A model generated the notes under the pieces. It was not told where the DNA came from. It was given only the letters and a program-made list of their open reading frames with translations, and ran no database searches. Positions 1 to 30,677 of a DNA stretch of 64,000 nt are shown here, one piece after another (the stretch's first letter is position 1; every line of letters begins with the position of its first letter). The translations under genes were made by a program, and so were the position numbers. The DNA is from an uncultured Fodinibius sp. (GTDB lineage: Bacteria > Bacteroidota > Rhodothermia > Balneolales > Balneolaceae). The stretch covers positions 124,001 to 188,000 of the forward strand of contig CAJXMW010000005.1 in the NCBI GenBank assembly GCA_913056235.1. The letters run 5' to 3'.

Positions 1-360
1 GAAATTATTGCGGGACACGACCTGAAAGTTGACACCTATATAGTACCGGCCACAACCGAAATTGCTGATGGGCTGGAGACCGAAACTTTCAACGGTGAGC
101 CGCTGATCGATATTTTCAGAAAGGCCGGCTGTAAGATCGGTCAGGCATCCTGCGCGGCTTGCCTTGGCGGTCCGTCGGATACCTTTGGCCGGCTGAATAA
201 TGATGAAACATGCATCTCCACGACCAACCGGAATTATCCCGGTCGAATGGGTTCTAAAGAGTCTGAGGTCTATTTAGCTTCGCCCTACACCGTGGCCGCC
301 TCAGCCATCACCGGCAAGATTACCGACCCACGAGTCTTCATTCACGAAACTATCATTTAA
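1..360 (+). CDS. leuC: 3-isopropylmalate dehydratase large subunit, C-terminal part (truncated by window start)
   Basis: Frame 1 is open from base 1 to TAA at 358-360; reads ...CKIGQASCAACLGGPSDTFGRLNNDETCISTTNRNYPGRMGSKESEVYLASPYTVAASAITGKITDPR, an aconitase-family C-terminus; followed by leuD and leuB. Confidence 0.9.
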   Translation, partial: EIIAGHDLKVDTYIVPATTEIADGLETETFNGEPLIDIFRKAGCKIGQASCAACLGGPSDTFGRLNNDETCISTTNRNYPGRMGSKESEVYLASPYTVAASAITGKITDPRVFIHETII

Positions 361-504
361 CTCGATTAGAAGATAAAAACTATTACAATCATCCCCATTG
401 CACCCTTCAAAGGGGGACACTTCTCTGGAAATATAATGAGTATCAGCTAAGGGGATTCAAATACACTCTAGCTTCAACTAAATAAATTCTAGCAATTACC
501 AATT

Positions 505-1083
505 ATGTCAGAACAGAACCAAACAATTAAAGGAAAGGCATTTGTGCTCGGTAAAAATATCGACACCGACCAGATTATTCCGGCTGAGCATCTAGTCTAC
601 AGTCTCGATGATCCCGAAGAGCGCAAATTTTATGGACGGCATGCGCTTTCGGGCGTACCGGATGAACAGTCAGGTCTGCCACAAGGGGGAATCCCGCTGG
701 TCGAAGCGGACGAATTTGAAAGTGAGTTCAATATTATTGTGGGCGGTCCCAATTTCGGCTGCGGATCGTCGCGCGAACACGCCCCGGCCTCACTGGATAT
801 TGCCGGCGTGGAAGCGATTATCGCACCTACTTTTGCCCGTATTTTTTATCGCAACTCCGTGGACGGCGGTTTTGTTATTCCCTACGAAAGTCTGGAAAAT
901 TTGAGTAAAAAAGTCGAAACGGGTGATAAGCTTGAAATAGATCCGGCGAAGCAAACCGTTCGAAACATCAGCCAGGACGAAAGTTATGAAATTCGTCCAC
1001 TGGGCAGTGTCTCGGATATCGTTAACGCCGGTGGAATCTTTGAATTTGCACGAAAAGAGGGGATGATCGATGTCGCAAGCTAA
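505..1083 (+). CDS. leuD: 3-isopropylmalate dehydratase small subunit
   Basis: 192 aa; [37 protein letters not shown] swivel-domain motifs; between leuC and leuB. Confidence 0.95.
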
Positions 1084-2179
1084 AGAAATTGTTGTGTTAC
1101 CCGGAGATGGAATTGGTCCTGAAGTCACCAAAGAAGCCGTTAACGTTTTAGAGATCGTTTGCAAACGGCATGGGCACAAGCTGCGGATACGCTCCTTCCC
1201 TGTTGGCGGAGCCAGCATCGACCGTTATGGACGACCACTTACGGATGAAACGCTGGAGGCCTGCAAGGACAGCGAAGCTGTATTGTTGGGAGCAGTCGGC
1301 GGCGATAAGTGGAATGACCAGCCCAAGGACAAACGTCCCGAATCGGCGTTGTTGAACCTCCGCAAGGAACTAGATCTATACGCCAATCTGCGTCCCATTA
1401 AGACGTATAAATCTCTAATCCATGCCTCTCCCCTTAAACCAGAAATTATCGAAGGTGTGGATATCATGATCGTCCGCGAGCTTACCGGAGGGATCTACTT
1501 TGGACGTCCACGGCTGATCGAGCAGACCGAATCCGGCGAACGCGCCGTAGATACAAAGGAATACACGACCCCGGAAATAAAACGTGTTGCTCATACAGCT
1601 TTTGAAACGGCCACCGTACGCAACCGAAAAGTGACGTCGGTAGATAAAGCCAACGTGCTGGATTCATCCCGACTGTGGCGGCGCACTGTCGAGGAATCAG
1701 CCAAGCAGTGGCCGGAAATCAAACTGGAACATATGCTGGTTGATAACTGCGCGATGCAACTCGTTCGCAATCCCGGACAGTTCGACGTTATTCTTACCGG
1801 CAATATGTTTGGGGATATCCTGAGTGATGAGTCTTCGATGATTACCGGCTCGCTCGGCATGCTGCCATCGGCCAGTATCGGTGAGGAATACGCCATGTAC
1901 GAACCTGTACACGGCTCAGCGCCCGACATTGCCGGTCAAGACAAAGCCAATCCATTGGCGGCCATTGCCTCAGTAGCACTCATGTGTCGCTACTCGCTGG
2001 ATATGCCTGAAGCAGCGCAAGAGATCGAAGAAGCAATCGTAGCCACGCTGCATGATGGCTTCCGTACGGCGGATATTGCTTCTCATTTCACCAAAGAACA
2101 TGAAGTAAGCACATCTGAGATGGGCAGCGCCATCCTAAAGCACCTCGATTCCGATCTGAAACCCGGAATTTTCTTGTAG
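1070..2179 (+). CDS. leuB: 3-isopropylmalate dehydrogenase
   Basis: 369 aa; VLPGDGIGPEV, VRELTGGIYFGRPR, MFGDILSDESSMITGSLGMLPSAS, EPVHGSAPDIAGQDKANP; overlaps leuD end by 14 bp. Confidence 0.97.
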   Translation: MSQAKEIVVLPGDGIGPEVTKEAVNVLEIVCKRHGHKLRIRSFPVGGASIDRYGRPLTDETLEACKDSEAVLLGAVGGDKWNDQPKDKRPESALLNLRKELDLYANLRPIKTYKSLIHASPLKPEIIEGVDIMIVRELTGGIYFGRPRLIEQTESGERAVDTKEYTTPEIKRVAHTAFETATVRNRKVTSVDKANVLDSSRLWRRTVEESAKQWPEIKLEHMLVDNCAMQLVRNPGQFDVILTGNMFGDILSDESSMITGSLGMLPSASIGEEYAMYEPVHGSAPDIAGQDKANPLAAIASVALMCRYSLDMPEAAQEIEEAIVATLHDGFRTADIASHFTKEHEVSTSEMGSAILKHLDSDLKPGIFL

Positions 2180-2188
2180 AAAATTGTA

Positions 2189-2219
2189 GACTTCCCAAGT
2201 GTGCAAAACTTGGGAAGTC
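2189..2219. terminator. Inverted repeat between convergent genes
   Basis: GACTTCCCAAG-tgtgcaaaa-CTTGGGAAGTC, 11-bp perfect stem after leuB, shared with the convergent sulfurtransferase gene. Confidence 0.75.
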
Positions 2220-2228
2220 AAATAAAGC

Positions 2229-3071
2229 TTACCGCTCGATTGGTGCATCAATCAGGTTACCCCATTCAGTCCAGGAACCATCGTAGTTCTGAACATTAGG
2301 ATACTCGAGCAGCTCATTCAGCACAAACCATGAGTGTGCCGACCGTTCGCCGATGCGGCAATAGGCAACGATATCCTTATCGGACGTAATGCCTTCTTCC
2401 TCATAAATCTTCTTGAGCTGATCTTTGCTCTTGAATGTACCGTCTTCGTTGACCGCTTTTGACCACGGGATGTTCGAGGCTCCAGGAATATGTCCCGGGC
2501 GCTGCGACAACTCATTTACTCCCGGAGGTGCAAGTATCTCACCTCGGAACTCTTCAGGTGAGCGCACATCAACCAAGCCAAACTCCTTGTCTTCCAGACG
2601 TTTTTTGACATCCTCCCGAAAAGCACGGTACTCTTTATTCCCACTGGAAATTTTATAGTTGGTCTTATCATAATTTGGACGATCTTTAGTCAACTTGCGA
2701 TTTTCGGCCGTCCACTTTTTACGTCCGCCATCCAGAATTTTGACTTTCTCATGACCGTAATATTTCAACAACCAGTAAGCCCAGGCGGCAAACCAGTTGT
2801 TGTTATCCCCATACAGAATGATGATGGTGTCATTACTAATCCCGGATTGACGAAGCAGTTGTTGGAAATCATCTTTGGAGGCAATCGTCCGCCGAAGCTG
2901 ATCCTGCAACTGTGTCTTCCAGTTCCATCCTACCGCGCCGGGAATGTGTCCCGAGTCGTAAGATTCGGTATCAACGTCCACTTCCACAAAGCGGACTTCT
3001 TTGTCATTGAGATGATTGGCAGCCCAATCAGTTGTTACCAGTGTTTTAGTGCTAGTTAATACATCAGGCAT
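2229..3071 (-). CDS. Sulfurtransferase (tandem rhodanese domains, thiosulfate/3-mercaptopyruvate type)
   Basis: Likely start MPDVLTSTKTLVTTDWAANHL at 3071 inside the longer ORF 2229..3173; two rhodanese-like domains, active-site region DKDIVAYCRIGERSAHSWFVL. Confidence 0.9.
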   Translation of the reverse strand: MPDVLTSTKTLVTTDWAANHLNDKEVRFVEVDVDTESYDSGHIPGAVGWNWKTQLQDQLRRTIASKDDFQQLLRQSGISNDTIIILYGDNNNWFAAWAYWLLKYYGHEKVKILDGGRKKWTAENRKLTKDRPNYDKTNYKISSGNKEYRAFREDVKKRLEDKEFGLVDVRSPEEFRGEILAPPGVNELSQRPGHIPGASNIPWSKAVNEDGTFKSKDQLKKIYEEEGITSDKDIVAYCRIGERSAHSWFVLNELLEYPNVQNYDGSWTEWGNLIDAPIER

Positions 3072-3519
3072 AATGTTAACCTTTTGATTTTGGATTTGGA
3101 TTAGAGTAAGAACAAGCCCCAAAACCAGTCGCAGGAGAGTAGGATCACAAATAGCAAAGCCCACCACCTGCAAAAGGCAGCGGGCTCAGAATCTTTAACA
3201 AGATAAAATCATGTTATAGAATCACACCCACTACCTTCTGCGGTTTTCATACAGCAACAGTACATACACTGCATAGCCATACACATTGAACAGAAGTTGT
3301 AGATGTAATTAAATCCTCTCATAAAAATGTTATTACTTTCGCCTGATTAACAATAAAACTTGTAGCGGGGTAAGTCAACAACTACAGAAAATTTTACAAT
3401 CTAGGAACTTCTGCTTAGTATCAGACGTTTGACTATATTCAACAATTAGTAAAAACGCCATCACTTTGAACATCAGACAAGACATATTTCCCTTTTCTCT
3501 TTCGCACCATTGCTGTGCT

Positions 3520-3549
3520 ATGTCTTGTTGTTGCTGTTGTTGTAGCTAG
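3520..3549 (+). CDS. Candidate poly-cysteine leader peptide MSCCCCCCS
   Basis: ATG TCT TGT TGT TGC TGT TGT TGT AGC TAG: six consecutive Cys codons, 108 bp upstream of the cysteine synthase start, same strand. Confidence 0.7.
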   Translation: MSCCCCCCS

Positions 3550-3591
3550 TTACCGGATCTAATTCCACTCACTTCTTACCGGTACCAGCTA
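3543..3591 (+). promoter_or_regulatory. Stem-loop overlapping the end of the poly-Cys leader ORF (candidate attenuation structure)
   Basis: TAGCT(a)G(t)TACCGG at 3543-3556 pairs with CCGGTA(c)CAGCTA at 3579-3591; about 12 bp with one bulge and one mismatch; overlaps the last Cys, Ser and stop codons. Confidence 0.5.
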
Positions 3592-3656
3592 GATGTTGAG
3601 CACTCAGCTCGCTCTGCTGTATTCCCTTTTCCCAACCAACAACTATTTTTTAGTAC

Positions 3657-4601
3657 ATGGACATCACCAACACTCTACAAACCAAAAATTTAACACTTAG
3701 CGAAAAAAGCCACCGATTAGATTCCTATATCGGGCAAACTCCACTATATCCGATTAATAATCTGCACCAAAATGAAGAGGTAAAAATATTTGCCAAGCTC
3801 GAGTGGCAGCAGTTTGGCGAAAGCGTAAAAGCACGACCGGCCTACCGTATCATTCAGGATGCTATTACCGCTGGCGATCTTACTATGGATAAACACTTGC
3901 TGGATGCCAGTAGCGGCAATACGGGCATCGCCTATGCTCAAATTGGCGCTGCGCTAAGCATTCCGGTCACCCTCTGCCTGCCAGAAAATGCCTCGGAAGA
4001 ACGCAAGCAGATACTGCGGGCGCTGCATGTTGACCTTCGACTGACCTCGCGCAGTGGCGGTACGGATGAGGCCCAGAAAGTAGCTAAGCAGATATACGAA
4101 AACCAGCCCGAGAAATATTTTTATGCAGACCAATATGGCAATCCCAGCAACTGGAAAGCACACTTTGATACCACCGGTCCCGAAATTCTGGACCAGACGG
4201 ATTACCAAATTACCCACTTTATTACCGGTTTGGGCACCACTGGCACTTTTACGGGCACCGGCAAAATTTTGAAAGAATACAACCAGGACATCAGACTTAT
4301 TGGTCTACAACCGAATATTGCCATGCATGGTTTAGAGGGTTGGAAACACTTAGAAACAGCCCACCGTCCCGACATTTATGATGATTCAGTACCGGATGAA
4401 ATCCGTTCGGTGAGTACTGAGCTGGCGTATGAGTTGGTCAAACAAACGGCTCACGAAGAAGGCTTGCTGATCAGTCCCTCCTCGGCAGCCAATCTGGCAG
4501 GGGCCCTGCAGTTGGCCGATGAAATTAAAGAAGGCACCATCGTGACCATCTTTCCGGATGACGGAAGTAAGTACAGTGAAATCTATAATCAACTTTTTTA
4601 G
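3657..4601 (+). CDS. cysM: PLP-dependent cysteine synthase family protein (CysK/CysM-like)
   Basis: 314 aa; LEWQQFGESVKARPA (PLP lysine region), DASSGNTGIAYA, TGLGTTGTFTGTGKIL, SPSSAANLAGAL; first gene of an operon with JAMM/CysO/MoeB-like genes. Confidence 0.9.
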   Translation: MDITNTLQTKNLTLSEKSHRLDSYIGQTPLYPINNLHQNEEVKIFAKLEWQQFGESVKARPAYRIIQDAITAGDLTMDKHLLDASSGNTGIAYAQIGAALSIPVTLCLPENASEERKQILRALHVDLRLTSRSGGTDEAQKVAKQIYENQPEKYFYADQYGNPSNWKAHFDTTGPEILDQTDYQITHFITGLGTTGTFTGTGKILKEYNQDIRLIGLQPNIAMHGLEGWKHLETAHRPDIYDDSVPDEIRSVSTELAYELVKQTAHEEGLLISPSSAANLAGALQLADEIKEGTIVTIFPDDGSKYSEIYNQLF

Positions 4602-4609
4602 GATTTGTT

Positions 4610-5059
4610 ATGAAGCTCGAAGTTAGTTCCGAAGCACTACAAAACATGCATCGACATGCCGAGGCCGATTATCCCAACGAGTGCTGTGGCTTCTTTTTGG
4701 GACTGGAAGGTGATGTGCGCCAAGTCAGGGTAATACGCGAAGTGGAAAATGCCAAAGAGGGCGATCAGCGTCGACGTTTCCAGATCGATCCCAAAGATTA
4801 CCAGCAGGCCGAAAAGTACGCCATTGAGCACGACCTGGACCTGCTGGGCGTCTATCATTCGCATCCGGATCATCCCGCCGAGCCTTCTGAGCATGACCGA
4901 AGCGTGGCCATGCCTTGGTTTTCATACATCATTATATCCCTGCAGGACGGCAAAGCCAGTAACACGCGATCTTGGCGACTTAATGATGAACGACAATTTG
5001 AAGAAGAACCGTTTGAGACCAAAGAATTTTCATCACAACCAAAAAACTTAGATATCTAG
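4610..5059 (+). CDS. M67-family JAMM/MPN metallopeptidase (Mec-like)
   Basis: 149 aa; ECCGFFLG and JAMM motif HSHPDHPAEPSEHD; adjacent to a ubiquitin-like sulfur-carrier gene. Confidence 0.9.
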   Translation: MKLEVSSEALQNMHRHAEADYPNECCGFFLGLEGDVRQVRVIREVENAKEGDQRRRFQIDPKDYQQAEKYAIEHDLDLLGVYHSHPDHPAEPSEHDRSVAMPWFSYIIISLQDGKASNTRSWRLNDERQFEEEPFETKEFSSQPKNLDI

Positions 5060-5063
5060 CACT

Positions 5064-5339
5064 ATGGCTAAAATTGTAATACCTACTCCCTTACGGAAGT
5101 TTACGAATCAGAATCGCAGTTTTGAGACTGATGAAACCAAACTCTCTGGTGCTATTGAACAGTTTGTAGAAACCTATCCCGAAGTAAAAGAAAACCTGCT
5201 GGATGAGGAAGGCAACGTTCGCTCATATATTAAAATCTATATCGGCGATGAAGAGGTATCCCCTACCGAAGATGGGTCCCTTGAACTCAACCAAGATACA
5301 GAGGTCAGTATCGTGCCTGCCATTGCAGGAGGTATTTGA
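5064..5339 (+). CDS. cysO: MoaD/ThiS-like ubiquitin-fold sulfur carrier (CysO-like), C-terminus GGI
   Basis: 91 aa; IPTPLRKFTNQNRSFE..., ends SIVPAIAGGI; position between JAMM peptidase and MoeB-like activating enzyme. Confidence 0.85.
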   Translation: MAKIVIPTPLRKFTNQNRSFETDETKLSGAIEQFVETYPEVKENLLDEEGNVRSYIKIYIGDEEVSPTEDGSLELNQDTEVSIVPAIAGGI

Positions 5340-5422
5340 GCACGCTGAGGCGCTAAGACGTAGCGTCATTATGCTTAGCGGCTTCACGTAAAAAACAGTA
5401 AATTTTCTAAAAGTTTATAATT

Positions 5423-6607
5423 ATGACTAATTGGAAAGACATTGAATTTTCTGGCGATGAACTTGGACACTACAGCCGACACCTGTCCATCCCCGAGTTT
5501 GGTATGGAGGGACAAAAAAAGCTGAAAGCTGCCAAAGTTGTGGCTGTAGGAACCGGCGGACTCGGTGCTCCTATGTTGCAGTACCTGGCTGCGGCCGGCG
5601 TAGGAACTATTGGTATTGTTGATTTTGACAAGGTGGAAGCCAGCAACCTGCACCGGCAGATTTTATTTGGCGCCTCCGATGTTGGACGTCCCAAGGTTGA
5701 AGTGGCTAAAGAAAGACTACAAGAAATCAATCCGCATATCGATATTCGAGTACATGAGACGCGGCTGACCAGCGACAACGCAATGGAGATTCTGAAAGAC
5801 TACGATGTCGTAGCTGACGGGACCGATAATTTTCCTACCCGTTATCTCATAAATGATGCCTGCGTGATGCTGGACAAGCCTAACGTGCATGGCTCCATTT
5901 TTCAATTCGAGGGGCAGCTTTCAGTGTTTAACCATGTTGATCAAGATGGCAATCGAGGTCCCAATTATCGCGACCTGTTTCCTGAGCCGCCACCTCCCGG
6001 TCTGGTACCTGACTGCGCCGAAGCCGGAGTGCTGGGTGTACTACCAGGCATCATCGGCTGCCTGCAGGCTAGCGAGATAATCAAGATTATTACCGGTATC
6101 GGCCAGCCGCTTTCGGGCCAGCTGTTTTTGTTTGATGCCCAAGATTTCAGCACGCGCAAGATGAACGTCAATAAAAATAAGGATAACCCACTGACGGGAG
6201 ATAATCCCGAAATTACCGAACTGATCGACTACGAAGCATTTTGTGGAGTTCCATCTGCCACGAATGGTGAAGAAGAAACAGAATCGGATGTGCCAGAAGT
6301 AAGCGTGCAGCAATACAAAGGCTGGCTGGAGGATGATGAGGACGTTCAGCTGATCGACGTGCGTGAACCTCACGAAGTAGAAATTGCCGAAATGGGCGGC
6401 GAACTTATTCCGCTTGATACTGTGCTTGATAATGCCGACAAAATCAGCCGCGATAAGAAAGTGGTAGTACACTGCCGCAGCGGAGCTCGAAGCGCAAAAG
6501 CGATTAGGCAGCTACAAGAAAAATATGGCTTTGAAAACCTCTACAACCTGGAAGGAGGCATTTTGGCCTGGTCGGAGAAAATTGACGAGACCATTCCACA
6601 ATATTAA
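5423..6607 (+). CDS. moeB: MoeB/ThiF-like adenylyltransferase with C-terminal rhodanese domain
   Basis: 394 aa; VGTGGLGAPMLQYLAAAGVGTIGIVDFDKVEASNLHRQILFG; C-terminal rhodanese VVHCRSGARSAKAI...GGILAWS. Confidence 0.92.
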   Translation: MTNWKDIEFSGDELGHYSRHLSIPEFGMEGQKKLKAAKVVAVGTGGLGAPMLQYLAAAGVGTIGIVDFDKVEASNLHRQILFGASDVGRPKVEVAKERLQEINPHIDIRVHETRLTSDNAMEILKDYDVVADGTDNFPTRYLINDACVMLDKPNVHGSIFQFEGQLSVFNHVDQDGNRGPNYRDLFPEPPPPGLVPDCAEAGVLGVLPGIIGCLQASEIIKIITGIGQPLSGQLFLFDAQDFSTRKMNVNKNKDNPLTGDNPEITELIDYEAFCGVPSATNGEEETESDVPEVSVQQYKGWLEDDEDVQLIDVREPHEVEIAEMGGELIPLDTVLDNADKISRDKKVVVHCRSGARSAKAIRQLQEKYGFENLYNLEGGILAWSEKIDETIPQY

Positions 6608-6615
6608 TTCAAATT

Positions 6616-6648
6616 ATTTGCCGGGCGACTTGAGCTCGTCCGGCAAAT
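6616..6648 (+). terminator. Intrinsic-terminator-like hairpin at the end of the cysteine operon
   Basis: ATTTGCCGGgCGA-cttgagc-TCGtCCGGCAAAT right after the moeB-like stop. Confidence 0.6.
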
Positions 6649-6668
6649 CAAATATAAACAGCACCCTA

Positions 6669-7115
6669 CTATTCTTCGATCAGTTGTAACGAAGTAGAGT
6701 TAACGCAGTACCGTAATCCTGTGGGTTTAGGCCCATCTGGAAATACATGGCCTAGGTGGGCTTCACAAACATTACACAGTACTTCAATGCGGTGCATCCC
6801 GTGACTGAGGTCTTCCTCGTACTTAATCACATTATCTTGTACTGGTTCGGTAAAGCTGGGCCATCCAGAACTAGACTCATACTTTTCGGTGGAATCAAAA
6901 AGCTCAGTACCGCAGCAAACACAGGCGTACAAACCGGGTTGATGTGATTCACAATATTCACCTGTGCCCGGCCGCTCAGTACCGTGTTTGCGGGTAACGT
7001 AAAACTGCTCTTCAGTTAACTCTTCTTTCCATTCTTCTTCTGACTTCTCTACTCTGCGTGGAGGGGTTGGATTTTCTTCACCTGCGTATTCCTGTACCTG
7101 TTTCCAATCGATCAT
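6669..7115 (-). CDS. msrB: Peptide-methionine (R)-S-oxide reductase
   Basis: 148 aa; GLYACVCCGTELFDSTEKYESSSGWPSFTEP, EVLCNVCEAHLGHVFPDGPKPTGLRYCVNSTSL. Confidence 0.97.
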   Translation of the reverse strand: MIDWKQVQEYAGEENPTPPRRVEKSEEEWKEELTEEQFYVTRKHGTERPGTGEYCESHQPGLYACVCCGTELFDSTEKYESSSGWPSFTEPVQDNVIKYEEDLSHGMHRIEVLCNVCEAHLGHVFPDGPKPTGLRYCVNSTSLQLIEE

Positions 7116-7146
7116 GATCTTCTCGTTTATTCGTAATCTTAAAAAA

Positions 7147-7170
7147 GGGTCAGACCAAAACCCTGACCCT
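7147..7170 (-). terminator. Hairpin downstream of tRNA-Pro
   Basis: AGGGTCAG-accaaaac-CTGACCCT flanked by an A-tract at 7141 (T-tract on minus strand). Confidence 0.7.
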
Positions 7171-7178
7171 ATTTGGAG

Positions 7179-7252
<74 letters not shown>

Positions 7253-7268
7253 AAAAATAATTTAAAAA

Positions 7269-7301
7269 AGATGTAGTCCACTTTGAGAGTGGACTACATC
7301 T
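7269..7301. terminator. Hairpin downstream of gap
   Basis: AGATGTAGTCCACT-ttgag-AGTGGACTACATCT, 14-bp perfect stem. Confidence 0.8.
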
Positions 7302-7311
7302 GAATATCAAC

Positions 7312-8316
7312 TTAAGCAATCTTTTTGATCAAGTCAGCGGTACGAGCAGAGTAGCCTGCTTCGTTGTCGTACCAAGCCAAGATCTTAACCAACTTACCAT
7401 CGGCTTTGGTAAAACCGCTGTCATAGATACAAGAGTGTGGGTTACTGAGAATATCTGTGGAAACGAGCTCCTCTTCAGAATATTCAAGTACACCTTTCAT
7501 CGCACCATTAGCCGCATTGCGGAATGCTTCGTGAACTTCCTCAACGGTAGCATCTTTCTCAACAACAGCAGTCAGATCTGTCAGCGATCCGTCGGGAACG
7601 GGTACACGGACAGCGCTGCCGTCAAGCTTGCCATCGAGGTGTGGAAGTACGAGTCCTACAGCTTGTGCTGCACCAGTAGTTGTTGGTACCAAATTCGCTG
7701 CTGCCGTACGTCCACGTCGGGGGTCCTTATGCGGACCATCCAGGATATTTTGGCTACCTGTATATGCGTGCGTGGTTGTCATAAATCCTTTTTCGACGCC
7801 AAATGCATCGTCCAGTACCTTTACCATCGGTGCCAGACAGTTGGTAGTACAGCTGGCGTTCGAATAAATATTTGCGCTACCATCAATTTCATCATCATTG
7901 ACGCCCAGAACAATCGTTTTCACATCCTTGTCGCCTTTGGCAGGCGCAGAAATAATAACTTGTTCTGCACCAGCTTCGAGGTGCTTGGAAGCCCCTTCCT
8001 TAGTTCGGAACAAGCCGGTAGATTCAACAATAATATCTGCTCCGCGTTCTCCCCACTTCAGGTTTGCAGGATCACGTTCGGAAGATATCCCAATCTCCAT
8101 ACCATCGATGGTAATGCTATCTTCGCTGGCGCTTACTTCTCCCTGATAAGTGCCGTGCACTGAATCGCGTTTAAACAGATAAGCAAGCGTCTCCGCATCC
8201 ATCAGGTCGTTAATGCCAACAATATTTATGTCGTCTTTGTGATACGCTAATATGGAACGGGTGACCAACCTTCCGATACGCCCGAAACCATTTATTCCAA
8301 TGTTAATTTTAGCCAT
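7312..8316 (-). CDS. gap: Glyceraldehyde-3-phosphate dehydrogenase, type I
   Basis: 334 aa; NGFGRIGRLVTR, SNASCTTNCLAP, HAYTGSQNILDGPHKDPRRGRTAAANLVPTTTGAA, WYDNEAGYSAR. Confidence 0.98.
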   Translation of the reverse strand: MAKINIGINGFGRIGRLVTRSILAYHKDDINIVGINDLMDAETLAYLFKRDSVHGTYQGEVSASEDSITIDGMEIGISSERDPANLKWGERGADIIVESTGLFRTKEGASKHLEAGAEQVIISAPAKGDKDVKTIVLGVNDDEIDGSANIYSNASCTTNCLAPMVKVLDDAFGVEKGFMTTTHAYTGSQNILDGPHKDPRRGRTAAANLVPTTTGAAQAVGLVLPHLDGKLDGSAVRVPVPDGSLTDLTAVVEKDATVEEVHEAFRNAANGAMKGVLEYSEEELVSTDILSNPHSCIYDSGFTKADGKLVKILAWYDNEAGYSARTADLIKKIA

Positions 8317-8452
8317 AGGTGTCGTCTTTATTTGCCTCTATTTTGAGTTCAATTAGAACATCGTTGTAAGTTTTGGCGACTCAACTATCGAATCGCTCAA
8401 AAATAAGAGATCACAGTACCATTTGTAAAAAAAATCCCGGACGCTCTAGATC

Positions 8453-9133
8453 TTAATCGTCCTCATCTATTGCTTCTTCATCATCCATCAAATCATCAAA
8501 ATCCGGCGCGTCCATAACTTCACTGTCCTCCTCATCTTCATCAAAATCGGCATCAGATTCTTTACTTGCGGTTGCCTTGGCGCCAGCCCTGCGCAACTGA
8601 TTTGCAATTTCCTTATTGTCGTTGTCGAGTGCCATGGAAAGCGCAGACTCATCATTTTTGTCGCGCAGCTTCACTTTTGCGCCATTGCCCAGTAGATACT
8701 TCACAATCATGGAGTGACCTTCACGGGCAGCTAGCATCAGTGCCGTTTGTCCCCAACGTTGTTGAACATTGACATTAGCTCCCTTTTCGACCAGCAGTTT
8801 TACGGCCTTCAAGTTTCCCTCCCGGGCTGCAGCAATGAGCGACACATCACCTATTTCAGCATTGTGTTCCAACAGCTGTTTCATCACTTCAATGTTACCT
8901 CGTTCCGCGGCACGGCTAAGTGCTGTTCCTCCCAACGAGGTGGTAATATTGGGATCAGCTCCCTGCTTCAGCAGAAAGTCAACAACTTCAACATTGTTAT
9001 GCTCGGCAGCAATAATAAGTGCGGAGACTCCATTCTTGGCCGTCCTATTTAAATCCGCATCATCGTTCGCAAGTTTTTTTATCTGCTTCAAATTCCCGCT
9101 CTTGGCAGCATCCAGCATTGTTGATAGTTCCAT
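8453..9133 (-). CDS. Ankyrin-repeat protein with acidic C-terminal tail
   Basis: 226 aa; repeats NGVSALIIAAEHNNVEVVDFLLKQGADPN, WGQTALMLAAREGHSMIVKYLL; C-terminus DFDEDEEDSEV...DDEEAIDEDD. Confidence 0.88.
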   Translation of the reverse strand: MELSTMLDAAKSGNLKQIKKLANDDADLNRTAKNGVSALIIAAEHNNVEVVDFLLKQGADPNITTSLGGTALSRAAERGNIEVMKQLLEHNAEIGDVSLIAAAREGNLKAVKLLVEKGANVNVQQRWGQTALMLAAREGHSMIVKYLLGNGAKVKLRDKNDESALSMALDNDNKEIANQLRRAGAKATASKESDADFDEDEEDSEVMDAPDFDDLMDDEEAIDEDD

Positions 9134-9226
9134 TTCAGTAAGTCCTTAATTCAGGGTAAATATATTGCTACTTATATCACAATAATCTGCTTATTTGTCA
9201 ATACGAATCTGTTACTTGTTATTTTT

Positions 9227-10141
9227 CTAATGCAGCATACCGATACCACTATAGCCATTCATAAAATCTTTTCCACTCATCCGGCGTTTTCCCTGTAGTT
9301 GAACTTCTTTAAGGATTAAAGTTCCCGTTTTACAACCTACAATCAAATCATCGCCAGACATCTCCAGTTGTCCCGGCGCCACCTTTTTAGACGGACCAAT
9401 TTCCGAGCGATAGATATTAAATTTCAGATCATCCACCTCAGCCCAGGCAGTGGGGAAAGGACTCAAACCACGGATTTTGTTATGGACTTGTTCGACCGGT
9501 TGATCAAAATCAATCTTACAGTCATCGGTAAACAACTTCGGTGCGGGCGTTGCTTTTGTGTCATCCTGTGGTTGAAGCTCGTACGTTCCCTGACCAATTT
9601 CATCTATTGATTCGACAAGCAACTCGCTTCCCAATTTCTTGAGGCGCTTATAGACATCGCCAGTTGTTTCGTTGGGACCTATCGAAGTTTCGCTCTGCTG
9701 GATGATATTCCCGGTATCGACTTGTTCATCCAGAAAAAACACCGTACAACCTGTTTTCTCTTCCCCGTTGATAATGGCCCAGTGGATGGGAGCTGCTCCT
9801 CTGTATTTAGGCAACAGCGAAGCGTGTAAATTGATCGATCCCTCGGTGGGCAATTCTAAAATCTTGGGAGGTAAAATCCGGAAAGCAACGACCACAAACA
9901 GATCGGCGTCCAGCGCCTTCAGCTTTTGATAAAAGTCGGGATCATCGAGTTCTTCAACCTCAATTACTGGCAAGTCCAGCTCCAGGGCTTTCTTTTTTAC
10001 CGCCGTGGGAGAAGTATCCCCCCCTCGTCCACGCCGCTTGTCCACATTACTGACTACCGATACAATATCGTGATCGGATTGATACAATTTCTCCAGGCTC
10101 GGGATGGCGAAATCCGGAGACCCCATAAAAACAATGCGCAT
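9227..10141 (-). CDS. fmt: Methionyl-tRNA formyltransferase
   Basis: 304 aa; MRIVFMGSPDFAIPSLEKL, NLHASLLPKYRGAAPIHWAIINGE, GLSPFPTAW; adjacent to def. Confidence 0.97.
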   Translation of the reverse strand: MRIVFMGSPDFAIPSLEKLYQSDHDIVSVVSNVDKRRGRGGDTSPTAVKKKALELDLPVIEVEELDDPDFYQKLKALDADLFVVVAFRILPPKILELPTEGSINLHASLLPKYRGAAPIHWAIINGEEKTGCTVFFLDEQVDTGNIIQQSETSIGPNETTGDVYKRLKKLGSELLVESIDEIGQGTYELQPQDDTKATPAPKLFTDDCKIDFDQPVEQVHNKIRGLSPFPTAWAEVDDLKFNIYRSEIGPSKKVAPGQLEMSGDDLIVGCKTGTLILKEVQLQGKRRMSGKDFMNGYSGIGMLH

Positions 10142-10147
10142 AACCTT

Positions 10148-10738
10148 TTATTTTTGCTCAGCTTTCTTAGGTACGACCGGATAGGCGATGTCTGCCCGGC
10201 CTTCAGCAATCTCATTTAATTTAGAGCCCAGCAGTTTGCGCTTAAACATGGATAGATGATCCAAAAACAAAATGCCATCAAGGTGGTCGGTCTCATGCTG
10301 AATGACACGCGCCCACCAGCCGTCAATTTCAAGTTCCTGCTCGTTGAAATCACGATCCAGGTAGGAGACTACAATTTTTTCGGGACGCTTCACTGAAGCA
10401 TTCACCCCGGGAATGCTCAGGCATCCCTCATCCATGGCAACCTCATCGCCGCCCTGAAAGGTGATTTCGGGATTTATCATCGCAATGGGACCCATTTGCG
10501 GTCCTTCTCCTTCTTCCGACATCGCATCGGCATCAGCCACAAAAATTCGTCTTAGCTCTCCAATTTGCGGTGCAGCCAATCCAACCCCATCCGAGTTATA
10601 CATAGTATCGAACATGTCATCGATGAGCGTCTGAATCTCCTCAGAGTTTTTATTGACGGGCTCCGCTTCTTTGCGAAGCACTTCGTCATCATACGTAACG
10701 ATCGGTAATACGGACATTGTTGGCTTCTGCGAGTTCAA
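10148..10738 (-). CDS. def: Peptide deformylase (likely start MSVLPIVTYDDE internal to the ORF)
   Basis: GVGLAAPQIG, EGCLSIPG, VIQHETDHLDGILFLD motifs. Confidence 0.97.
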   Translation of the reverse strand: MNSQKPTMSVLPIVTYDDEVLRKEAEPVNKNSEEIQTLIDDMFDTMYNSDGVGLAAPQIGELRRIFVADADAMSEEGEGPQMGPIAMINPEITFQGGDEVAMDEGCLSIPGVNASVKRPEKIVVSYLDRDFNEQELEIDGWWARVIQHETDHLDGILFLDHLSMFKRKLLGSKLNEIAEGRADIAYPVVPKKAEQK

Positions 10739-11144
10739 TATATTTCTGTAAAATGATAGCAGCCGCTGCTTGGTTGATACGGTCAGATTCGCGCCGCTTC
10801 ATCTTGGGAACGCCAGCCTCTACCATAGCACGTACAGCTTCTTTGGTAGTATAGCGTTCGTCGATTTTCTGAATTTCAATATCGGGAAATTTAGAGCTGA
10901 GCTCGGTAAGAAATTTTTCTACCATTTTTATGGCTCGTCCCTCTTGGCCACTCGGGGTAAGCGGCCATCCTACGACAAACATCTCAACATTTTCCTCTTC
11001 AACGAGTTCTTCCAGTTTGTCAAAAACGACTTCGTAATGGTAGGTACCAATGGGATTGGCTACGGTTTTAAGTAAGTCGGTACGAGCTAAGCCAATCCAT
11101 TTTGTTCCGACATCGATACCGACCAGTCTTCCGTATTCTGCCAC
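10689..11144 (-). CDS. ruvX: Holliday junction resolvase-like protein RuvX/YqgF
   Basis: 151 aa; GRLVGIDVGTKWIGLARTD, VGWPLTPSGQEGRAIKMVEKF, DERYTTKEA. Confidence 0.92.
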   Translation of the reverse strand: MAEYGRLVGIDVGTKWIGLARTDLLKTVANPIGTYHYEVVFDKLEELVEEENVEMFVVGWPLTPSGQEGRAIKMVEKFLTELSSKFPDIEIQKIDERYTTKEAVRAMVEAGVPKMKRRESDRINQAAAAIILQKYIELAEANNVRITDRYV

Positions 11145-11146
11145 TG

Positions 11147-11479
11147 CTAATCTTCCATTTCTTCTAATTCCTCTTCTTCAAGAGGTTGTTTCAAAAATTG
11201 TTTTAAAAGCTTACTCGGTTTAAAATGAGTCTTGCGATGCGGAGGCACATAAATCTCTTCGTTCGTCTTGGGATTTCGAGCCTTCGGCTTCGCTTTGGTT
11301 TTCTTGACTTCAAAAACACCAAAGTCGCGCAATTCGATCCGACAAGTCGGATCCGCGTCCATCATTGTCTCGCGAAGGGCAACAAGTACTGCATCAACCC
11401 ATGGCTCGGTTTGAACCATTGGCTCATCCAGCTCTTCCGCGACGCGACGTACAATGTCTCTTTTTGTGTATGTAATCAT
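11147..11479 (-). CDS. HU/IHF-family DNA-binding protein
   Basis: 110 aa; MITYTKRDIVRRVAEEL, IELRDFGVFEVKKTKAKPKARNPKTNEEI. Confidence 0.92.
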   Translation of the reverse strand: MITYTKRDIVRRVAEELDEPMVQTEPWVDAVLVALRETMMDADPTCRIELRDFGVFEVKKTKAKPKARNPKTNEEIYVPPHRKTHFKPSKLLKQFLKQPLEEEELEEMED

Positions 11480-11632
11480 AGTCTGATCGTGATATTTATT
11501 AAACCTTTACTTTTTCTCTGACCCTGGTTGAGAGAATGATATAAATAGTACCAATTTTTCTGTGATTGATGATATTACTTTTCTACCAGATTTAAAAATA
11601 TTTAAGGGCGTAAATTTTAGAGAAACAACAAC

Positions 11633-13885
11633 TTACTCGTAACGATATACGCTCTTCACGCCGTCTACTTTCTGAAGTTTTGCAATTATGCGATCCAAGT
11701 GATCAATGTCTTCCACATAAACGGTGAGGATACCTTCGAACATTCCACTGTCGCTGTTCACATTGATACTTTTCATGTTGGTTTCAAGCGATTTTGACAA
11801 GACATCAGTAATATCATTAATCATGCCCACACGATCTTCGCCAATCACTTTAACAGCTCCCAGAAACTGGGAATCAATATTTTTGGCCCACGACACATCC
11901 ACGATCCGCTCGCCGTCGGTCTGGATAAGATGATGGATGTTTTTACAATTTGAGCGATGAATCTTCACATCACCTGTGCGACTTATAAAGCCCATCACGT
12001 CATCACCCGGAATGGGATTACAGCAGTTTGCATAATTATACTTCACATTCGTGAGCTCACCGTTGATGATCAGCGCCTTCTCATCACTAACCGAACGCGC
12101 CGCATTGATATATGTTTCCTGAATTTCTTCTTCGGTGGCCGGAGCTGTCTTCTCTTCCTCTTCTTGATCCTCTTCGATACGACCTTTGCTGGTATATTGC
12201 TTAACAGCCTTAAACAACTTATTTACATCAAATGTACCTTTACCAATATCGTAAAACAGGTCTTGGGTAGAATCAAAATTTAGCTTTTGGGCAACTTTGG
12301 TGAGATCCTGATCAGAAATCTCAACATTACCCCGCTTGGCGCGTTTTTCCCAGATTTCACGTCCCTCGTCGGCCGTCTGCCGCTCTTTCTGTTTGATAAA
12401 CTGACGGATCCGTGACTTCGCCTTGTGGGTCACCACATCGTTGATCCAATCCGGATTGAGGTTAATTTTATTTCCCGTGATGATCTCAACCTGGTCACCA
12501 ATATCCAGTTTCTGACGTAGCGGCGCCATTTTGCCATTAATTTTGGCAGCAATGGCTCGTTCGCCAATTTCGCTGTGAATATCAAACGCAAAGTCGATGG
12601 GAGTAGCTCCCTGCGGCAGAGTACGCAGCTCACCATCCGGGGTAAACACATAAATCTCATCCTGGTAGAGATTAAGCTGGAAATCCTTTACAAATTCCGT
12701 AGCCGCATCAGGACGAGGGTTGTCAAGTATATCACGCACCCAGTGGACAAACTTGTCCAGTGTCTCCGAACCACTGCCTTTGCCCTCTTTGTACTTCCAG
12801 TGCGCAGCTACTCCTTTTTCGGCGATATCATCCATATGTCGCGTGCGGATCTGCACCTCTACCTTGCGTCCCTTTTTGGTAATCACCGTGGTATGCAAGG
12901 ATTGATAACCGTTGGCCTTGGGCACCGAGATAAAATCACGGAATCGCTTCGGAATGGGCGTATACCAGTCAGTAATAATAGAATAGACACGCCAGCAATC
13001 TTCTTTAGTATGCGGCTCTTCCAGGATGATGCGGATGGCAAACAGATCGTAAATCTCCTCAAAGGGCTTTTGTTGCCGCTGCATCTTGCGGAAAATTGAA
13101 TAGATATGTTTGGGACGCCCTTTCATCTCAAACGTAAAGCCCTGTTCATCCAGCTCGTCCTGAATGGGATCCATAAACTCCTCAATAAAAGCTTCACGGG
13201 CCTCTTTCTTCTCGCGCAACTTCCGCGCAATAAACTTGTACGAGTTGGGATCAATAACCTTAAAACAGAGGTCTTCCAACTCACTTTTGATATTAAACAA
13301 GCCAAACCGGTGTGCCAAAGGGGCGTACAACTCCATGGTTTCGGTGGCCTTTTCCATCTGCTTTTCGCGCGGCAAGTGCTGTATAGTACGCATATTATGC
13401 AAGCGGTCGGCAAATTTGATCAGTACCACGCGGATGTCCTCAGCCATGGAGAGGAGCATCTTCATAAAGGTTTCGGCCTGTTTGGTGTTGCGGCTCTTGA
13501 AAACCCCAGTAATCTTGGTTACACCGTCAATTAAATGAGAAACCGTATCGCCAAACTTTTCTTCGATATCTTCAAGAGTGACTCCGGTATCCTCTACGGT
13601 ATCGTGCAGCAGCGATGCCACTACCGACACATCATCGATATTGATCTCAGAAGCCACAATCTTAGCTACAGACACCGGATGATAATAAAAAGGTTCCCCG
13701 GAAGCGCGATCGACATCTTTGTGAGAAATATAGCAGAGCTTGAACGCTCGTGCTATCATCTGCTCATCCACCTCTTCAAGGCTGTCTCGGCATACCTTTA
13801 GCAGCTGATCCAGATCCTCTTGCTGAGGTGGATCCAGAGTATAATCATCTAAATCGATATTATATTTCGTCTTGGTGTCTGCCAT
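11633..13885 (-). CDS. RelA/SpoT-type bifunctional (p)ppGpp synthetase/hydrolase
   Basis: 750 aa; HD domain ASLLHDTVEDTG, synthetase RFRDFISVPKANGYQSLHTTVI, TGS domain VFTPDGELRTLPQGATPIDFAFDIHSEIG, C-terminal ACT domain. Confidence 0.96.
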   Translation of the reverse strand: MADTKTKYNIDLDDYTLDPPQQEDLDQLLKVCRDSLEEVDEQMIARAFKLCYISHKDVDRASGEPFYYHPVSVAKIVASEINIDDVSVVASLLHDTVEDTGVTLEDIEEKFGDTVSHLIDGVTKITGVFKSRNTKQAETFMKMLLSMAEDIRVVLIKFADRLHNMRTIQHLPREKQMEKATETMELYAPLAHRFGLFNIKSELEDLCFKVIDPNSYKFIARKLREKKEAREAFIEEFMDPIQDELDEQGFTFEMKGRPKHIYSIFRKMQRQQKPFEEIYDLFAIRIILEEPHTKEDCWRVYSIITDWYTPIPKRFRDFISVPKANGYQSLHTTVITKKGRKVEVQIRTRHMDDIAEKGVAAHWKYKEGKGSGSETLDKFVHWVRDILDNPRPDAATEFVKDFQLNLYQDEIYVFTPDGELRTLPQGATPIDFAFDIHSEIGERAIAAKINGKMAPLRQKLDIGDQVEIITGNKINLNPDWINDVVTHKAKSRIRQFIKQKERQTADEGREIWEKRAKRGNVEISDQDLTKVAQKLNFDSTQDLFYDIGKGTFDVNKLFKAVKQYTSKGRIEEDQEEEEKTAPATEEEIQETYINAARSVSDEKALIINGELTNVKYNYANCCNPIPGDDVMGFISRTGDVKIHRSNCKNIHHLIQTDGERIVDVSWAKNIDSQFLGAVKVIGEDRVGMINDITDVLSKSLETNMKSINVNSDSGMFEGILTVYVEDIDHLDRIIAKLQKVDGVKSVYRYE

Positions 13886-29993: not shown

Positions 29994-30170
29994 TTCCACT
30001 GATTGTAGAAATAATATACAATACGTCATACGTTCTATTGAGAGGTATGGCGTTTTAGTATCGTTCCTTTCCCCTACAAAGAGGCACAAGCTTACACTAC
30101 GGTCTACAACTTTTAACCCTTTCGATCCCTTCTCTTAAAGAACTTATCGTATGGCTGTAATATATCACCA

Positions 30171-30677
30171 ATGATCTATAGCATGGAACCTATTACTTCG
30201 GTTAAGGAATTATATCTCAAATTCATCAGTGATATCTATCACGGTGAAGTACTGTTGGTCCCTGAACTGCGTTTCTTCATTGAACAGTCCAAATCTGTAG
30301 AGCTTCAAAAAATAATCAAGAAACATCTGTACAATACCCGTTCCCATACCGATCAGCTCGAAGAGCTCCAAAAAAATATACTCACCAATATTCTTCGCGA
30401 ACACTGCCGAACGATGAAATCCATGATTCTTGAAAGCAAAGAGCTGGTTGATCGCTGTACCGACGCCAATACGTGGGAACGCGCCATTGTGGGATTATTA
30501 CATCGCATTACAAATTGCCTGTCAACGGCATATCAAATACTGATTGCCATGGCCGATGAACTTGACTTGCCCCACATCACCAAAAAATACTACAACACCA
30601 CCTGGAAGAGGAACGCATATTGGAGTACCAGACTCTATTCCAGGAATTTAACCTTCAAAAGAAACTATGATGACTAA
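30171..30677 (+). CDS. Divergent DUF892/YciF-like helical-bundle protein
   Basis: 168 aa; alignable by eye to the next gene (LYLKFISDIYHGE..., KKHLYNTRSHTDQLEELQ...); overlaps 30667 ORF. Confidence 0.65.
   Translation: MIYSMEPITSVKELYLKFISDIYHGEVLLVPELRFFIEQSKSVELQKIIKKHLYNTRSHTDQLEELQKNILTNILREHCRTMKSMILESKELVDRCTDANTWERAIVGLLHRITNCLSTAYQILIAMADELDLPHITKKYYNTTWKRNAYWSTRLYSRNLTFKRNYDD

Follow-up and report, generated by a model that had tools for sequence, protein, structure and literature searches.

A conserved poly-cysteine leader, probably a cysteine-sensing attenuator, precedes a cysM operon in Balneolales that lacks the intrinsic terminator of its relatives

The window analyzed here is a stretch of 64,000 nucleotides from an uncultured Fodinibius sp. 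(assembly GCA_913056235.1, contig CAJXMW010000005.1, positions 124,001 to 188,000), and all positions given below are those of the window. It carries four plus-strand genes, encoding a cysM-like cysteine synthase, a JAMM/JAB peptidase, a CysO/ThiS-type sulfur carrier protein and a MoeB/MoeZ-type adenylyltransferase, and, judged from the domains that they encode, this operon is one that makes cysteine. A short ORF with a run of Cys codons lies upstream of the operon, and a divergent sulfurtransferase gene on the other strand is preceded by a leader ORF of its own. The features of both sides are collected in Table 1.

Table 1. Leader elements and genes at the divergent cysM/sulfurtransferase locus of the window.
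Feature	Positions	Strand	Basis
Divergent sulfurtransferase with two rhodanese domains, target of the second leader	2229..3071	-	Two PF00581 domains; top NCBIfam model 3-mercaptopyruvate sulfurtransferase, under the cut-off
Hairpin of the second leader, resembling an intrinsic terminator	3157..3187	-	Hairpin seen in the window; relatives have stronger ones and longer U-tracts
Met/Cys-rich ORF of 37 aa forming the second leader, MRGFNYIYNFCSMCMAMQCMYCCCMKTAEGSGCDSIT	3209..3322	-	Counterparts in 8/8 Fodinibius-group loci L002-L009
Candidate antiterminator segment GGTAGTGGGT, complementary (G-U pairs included) to GCCCGCTGCC of the terminator	3226..3235	-	Sequence inspection
Leader ORF, probable extent: TTG start, 27 aa, C-terminus CCCCCCS; alternative start ATG 3520	3466..3549	+	Open frame, conserved place
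Helix P1 (predicted), 5' part of the leader (about 3476-3487) with 3518-3529, running into the Cys codons	3476..3529	+	Structure prediction
Six consecutive Cys codons	3526..3543	+	Run of some length in 16/16 Balneolales orthologs
C-rich, G-poor spacer from leader stop to cysM; candidate Rho loading region	3550..3656	+	C/G ratio
Hairpin P2 at the leader stop codon, 3551-3556 pairing with 3579-3584, G-free 22-nt loop	3551..3584	+	Compensatory changes
cysM-like cysteine synthase, first gene of the operon	3657..4601	+	PF00291; best NCBIfam TIGR01138 cysM, below its cut-off
JAMM/JAB peptidase	4610..5059	+	PF14464
CysO/ThiS-type sulfur carrier protein ending GG-I	5064..5339	+	PF02597
MoeB/MoeZ-type adenylyltransferase with rhodanese domain	5423..6607	+	PF00899 and PF00581

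The codons ATG TCT TGT TGT TGC TGT TGT TGT AGC TAG are read directly at 3520-3549 of the plus strand, and the six-Cys ORF claimed in the first-pass annotation of this DNA is thus real and on the same strand as cysM. Its location upstream of the operon also stands, with the distance corrected from 108 to 107 nt between the leader stop codon (3547-3549) and the cysM ATG at 3657. The start codon proposed there, ATG 3520, exists, but it is present in L002 and L006-L008 only, and the true start is probably TTG 3466, giving a longer leader peptide of 27 aa (LNIRQDIFPFSLSHHCCAMSCCCCCCS). Over the 24 codons before the Cys run the leader frame is open in 15 of the 16 relatives, with stops in a single sequence, while the other two frames are open in 1/16 and 10/16 and hold stops in 15/16 and 6/16, respectively. 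An in-frame ATG was observed in distant relatives at about the position of TTG 3466, with ORFs ranging from 27 to 35 aa. The third-position bias of the leader is weak, and the TTG start is therefore a likely one rather than a proven one.

The genome of the window (3.97 Mb in 9 contigs) contains 31 matches to four consecutive TGY codons, and every match examined except the leader overlaps an ORF of at least 113 aa on either strand (a locus was retrieved for 30 of the 31). A search for six TGY codons across 150 genomes of the phylum likewise placed nearly all the matches examined inside or antisense to genes. A possible poly-Cys leader (MIKLLILHADPHSTDCCCCCCSDNSD) was also noted in the middle of L204, a locus not matched to cysM and belonging to a distant member of the phylum. 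CysM orthologs with 49-76% identity were found in 17 of the 101 genomes of the first set, the window included, and all 17 loci have a Cys-run ORF upstream, on the same strand and ending 74-216 nt before cysM. The CysM-JAMM-CysO-MoeB operon was detected in 16 of 135 Balneolales genomes, and the leader precedes it in 16 of those 16, while it turned up in none of 160 dinucleotide shuffles and on none of the 16 opposite strands; the reversed Cys-run pattern was unusable as a control because a reversed UGU run still holds UGU. Fodinibius roseus and F. sediminis (L036 and L037) are among the relatives in which the leader is present. No Cys-run leader was found before the 13 CysK-type paralogs (L019-L031). 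The run also varies at the codon level, being CCCYCCC in L006, nine Cys in L016 and five in L011 and L014. Ordinary genes do contain TGY runs on their antisense strand or in another reading frame, so the poly-Cys ORF might be the functionless chance product of a TGY-rich repeat, but with place and frame kept at all 16 loci, codon-level variation and no such leader in the shuffles, the comparison refutes this explanation and leaves it next to no probability.

The comparison further indicates that the element is confined neither to this locus nor to this branch. With loci grouped by the titles of their database records and by kinship labels, a Cys leader was found at 42 of the 73 Bacteroidota-lineage loci outside Balneolales, including Saprospiraceae, Chitinophagaceae, Flavobacteriales, Reichenbachiella and others, and at 2 of the 25 loci from other phyla. 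One of these two, L065, belongs to a MAG labelled Rhodopirellula and may be mis-binned. L096, from an acidobacterial MAG, carries MNYKASTNCYATIDTRCCCCC at 28-115 nt before cysM (ending 28 nt upstream), which is an isolated example of a Cys leader from beyond the Bacteroidota lineage. Tandem pairs of Cys-run ORFs were observed before cysM in L038, L040, L045, L048, L051, L055, L059, L069, L076 and L088, and in some loci each of the tandem leaders carries a terminator of its own.

A U-tract terminator follows the leader at no fewer than 30 of the 42 Bacteroidota-lineage loci outside Balneolales under a strict scan, a minimum count, as terminators with long loops (that of L018/L124, for example) escape it. 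Reichenbachiella agariperforans (L039) is one of the terminator-type relatives. In L044, the Cys codons are followed by segments 1 and 2 (ACCATTCCCTTGCGGAAAGGC) and then by segments 3 and 4 (AAAAAGCCTTTCC-GTTTC-GGGAAGGC-TTTTTT), with segment 2 (GGAAAGGC) complementary to segment 3 (GCCTTTCC). Among the terminator-type relatives inspected, the pairings 1:2, 2:3 and 3:4 are readable in L044, and a matching antiterminator segment was present where inspected, so the trp/his-type layout with its U-tract is complete in Bacteroidota relatives. From its sequence, the element of the relatives is a textbook attenuator of the trp/his type, which would sense Cys-tRNA. Of 26 terminator-type relatives, 12 have a TAnnTTTG box, which we take to be the Bacteroidota -7 promoter element, shortly 5' of the Cys run (0.037 expected per region), a placement that fits a short 5' UTR only.

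No U-tract terminator was detected between leader and cysM in any of the 16 Balneolales sequences by U-tract scan, the window included. The first-pass annotation was right that no classic terminator is evident downstream, and its absence is specific to the Balneolales order, which, by comparison, has lost the U-tract terminator kept by its relatives on the orthologous operon. The imperfect stem of roughly 12 bp described in the same annotation is present as hairpin P2, with a conserved core of only 6 bp (TACCGG with CCGGTA) and a mismatched outer part in the window; the helix extends to 8-10 bp in several relatives. The expectation that the Cys-run ORF and the hairpin would recur at this locus in related genomes was borne out across the 16 Balneolales orthologs. 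In most Balneolales sequences the 5' arm of P2 begins at the stop codon and the loop measures 18-27 nt. The P2 of the window taken alone is short and not exceptional, and it is the covariation that points to structure: in 11 sequences, whose arms were registered by hand in a way that leans towards structure, 87 of 99 cells are paired and own arms give 7.9 pairs versus 5.0 for swapped arms. Several pairs change on both sides, pair 9 being G-C in five sequences, A-U in five and U-A in one. The helix P1 was predicted in all 16 Balneolales leaders, with z mostly between -1 and -3 against shuffles and with arms ACAAGACATA/TATGTCTTGT in the window and ACAAAACATA/TATGTTTTGT in L007. A mutually exclusive antiterminator was also sought, and the 3' arm of P2 has no significant downstream partner in Balneolales except in L016; an alternative fold in which the Cys run or this arm pairs further downstream was rejected, most sequences offering no significant partner. 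Among the Rfam 15 covariance models, only tRNA matched in positions 1-12000 of the window (E up to 1), with none at the leader, and no match at gathering threshold was found in the leaders of nine relatives.

The spacer between the leader stop and cysM has a C/G ratio of 2.36, ranking second among 36 upstream regions in the window, and the ratio ranges from 1.4 to 2.7 across all 16 Balneolales. The Balneolales median is 2.00 versus 1.21 in terminator-type relatives (Mann-Whitney p 8.5e-7, uncorrected for relatedness). Two loci of the genome encode a Rho RNA-binding domain, and the combination looked for on the model of tnaC, C-rich, G-poor and unstructured RNA after the leader stop together with Rho in the genome, was found. 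The spacer and the hairpin at the stop codon suggest Rho as the factor. Among the upstream regions of the window, the highest C/G ratio (2.58) is that of 30064-30170, before a DUF892 gene at 30171-30677, and this region is possibly another Rho-controlled leader.

The second leader and its hairpin were found in 8/8 Fodinibius-group loci, with the hairpins of the relatives mostly stronger than that of the window. The candidate antiterminator segment is complementary to the 5' arm of this terminator-like hairpin, and the pairing is perfect in relatives (GGTAGTGG/CCACTACC). The MCMCC codon pattern occurs in 34 of the 135 Balneolales genomes, usually once, and the reversed pattern in none of them. 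Many MCMCC sites in other Balneolaceae are a short Met/Cys leader plus terminator directly before a SAM-I riboswitch, which was confirmed at all 13 such loci tested and is followed by genes for a CoA-binding protein and/or O-acetylhomoserine sulfhydrylase, both named from sequence reading. The tandem arrangement was observed in L217, L218, L232-L234, L236, L237, L240-L243, L245 and L246. The genome of the window itself has a third leader of this type, MKRIARHIFCLCCMCMLRPHLQPKD, followed by a terminator, RF00162 (85 bits) and the sulfhydrylase gene; it lies at about 1323-1640 of L247 (contig C5, near 408313) and precedes metY. The tandem leader would thus hold two sensors, one for Cys/Met-tRNA and one for SAM, before metY and/or the CoA-binding protein gene.

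We consider it highly probable that the cysM leader is a cis-acting, ribosome-read attenuator that senses cysteine, an estimate that holds for the sensing attenuator as such, the Rho step apart. This reading draws on the conservation of the leader against shuffles and CysK paralogs, the terminator versions in relatives, the cysteine-making target, the covariation of P2 and the presence in this genome of two more Cys/Met leaders that have terminators. The Cys-tRNA-sensing leader suggested by the first-pass annotation is likewise supported by the recurrence of the element throughout the Balneolales orthologs and by the complete classical attenuator of the relatives; the cysteine response itself is inferred. 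In the proposed mechanism, the short leader would be transcribed and translated first. With plentiful Cys-tRNA, the ribosome would pass the six Cys codons and leave at the stop codon, P2 would form, and the exposed C-rich, G-poor RNA would admit a termination factor, Rho being the likeliest, to halt RNA polymerase ahead of cysM. With scarce Cys-tRNA, the ribosome would stall on the Cys codons, where it would occupy both the leader stop and the P2 5' arm and keep the factor off, so that cysM-JAMM-cysO-moeB would be transcribed. Since no opening of the ribosome-binding site is predicted, the spacer is C-rich and G-poor and Rho-domain loci are present, Rho-dependent attenuation was ranked first for the output step, and it has about an even chance of being correct if the leader is functional in the first place. 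Classical polarity speaks against the direction proposed, as a stalled ribosome there often works in Rho's favour; Rho would have to be kept off by the ribosome or by coupling, as in tnaC.

The output step might be of another kind. Translational attenuation, in which RNA structure hides the cysM start region until the stalling of a ribosome at the Cys codons exposes it, would agree with the absence of a terminator in Balneolales, as in mycobacteria, and with Canestrari 2020, which PMC9031893 and PMC13236596 cite for cysteine-responsive attenuation of translation at the poly-Cys ORFs of M. smegmatis. The predicted opening energy of the cysM start, however, is hardly altered by a masked-in stalled ribosome in 15 of the 16 sequences, only L009 dropping by nearly 4 kcal/mol, so that sequestration of the ribosome-binding site is unsupported by the model, and the Cys run and the P2 3' arm mostly lack the downstream partners described above; we hold this reading to be rather unlikely. 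Intrinsic termination could also persist through a hairpin without a proper U-tract, either P2 or a variable hairpin about 45 nt further on, given that many Balneolales leaders have a further small hairpin and that L016 has a strong one (AACGCCCGG/CCGGGCGTT), lacking a U-tract and overlapping an alternative helix. This appears quite improbable, as none of the 16 sequences passes the U-tract scan, the wide P2 loop is unlike that of a terminator, and the divergent Fodinibius-group leaders retain good U-tract terminators, which means that intrinsic termination works in this lineage. The conservation of P1 and P2 where the terminator is not conserved would suit a leader that sets mRNA stability or polymerase pausing, with a stalled ribosome protecting the 5' end or P2/P1 setting RNA processing, but no support for a nuclease site was found and the relatives clearly use termination, making such a role very doubtful.

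Poly-Cys leaders without terminators were predicted in Mycobacterium, P. acnes and B. longum, with Rho suggested (Seliverstov 2005, PMC1262725), and the cysA2 leader was reported as what might prove the first bacterial case of attenuation directed by cysteine (Shell 2015, PMC4633059). Like these actinobacterial leaders, that of the window is a short ORF with a Cys run near the stop, before cysteine/sulfur genes and without an intrinsic terminator, and a sulfurtransferase lies under a Cys leader here as cysA2 does in mycobacteria. It differs in its lineage, in the unsupported sequestration of the ribosome-binding site, in the covarying hairpin at the stop codon and in having relatives with full intrinsic-terminator attenuators. 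A leaderless mRNA that begins with the start codon of the leader is a mark of the mycobacterial attenuators. The uORFC-8-2 motif described in Rhodobacterales (PMC8632094), in which a Cys-Cys uORF and a terminator precede cysS, shares Cys codons in a uORF and ribosome-mediated attenuation inferred from sequence, whereas it is alphaproteobacterial and has two Cys codons, a U-tract terminator and a cysteinyl-tRNA synthetase as target. With trp/his-type attenuators the window shares a run of product amino-acid codons before the biosynthetic operon of that amino acid, but its cysM leader is without a U-tract terminator and a detectable 2:3 antiterminator. The likeness to tnaC lies in a leader peptide followed by C-rich RNA without an intrinsic terminator, where, as proposed here, ribosome position would decide Rho access. 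However, tnaC arrests at its own stop codon through the nascent peptide and free Trp, while stalling in the window would stem from the lack of charged tRNA. For Bacteroidota, leader-peptide attenuation of amino-acid operons in general (PMC9723704) and candidate sORFs (PMC7366714) are described, and no mention of cysteine leaders was found in the literature searched, supplements and most subscription papers lying outside it.

Overall, the element is very probably cysteine-sensing, a leader known in kind, new in its lineage as far as the literature was searched, which reports cysteine leader attenuation from Actinobacteria and a single alphaproteobacterial order, and unusual in the loss of the terminator. 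It may belong to a cysteine/methionine 'ribulon' of the Bacteroidota lineage, in which poly-Cys and Met/Cys leaders would put the CysM-JAMM-CysO-MoeB operon, the sulfurtransferase and metY (in tandem with SAM-I) under direct ribosomal control, and in which the Balneolales cysM member would have retained the sensor but given up its intrinsic terminator in favour of a switch that is factor-dependent or of another kind, independently reaching a mycobacterial-like design; we are evenly divided on this wider view. Since the leader of this orthologous operon exists across the lineage both with and without a terminator, the evolution of the output mechanism of leader peptides becomes directly testable. 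The leaders described here further suggest a likely circuit that controls cysteine, methionine and sulfur-carrier genes with no transcription factor involved, in bacteria about whose regulation little has been learned.
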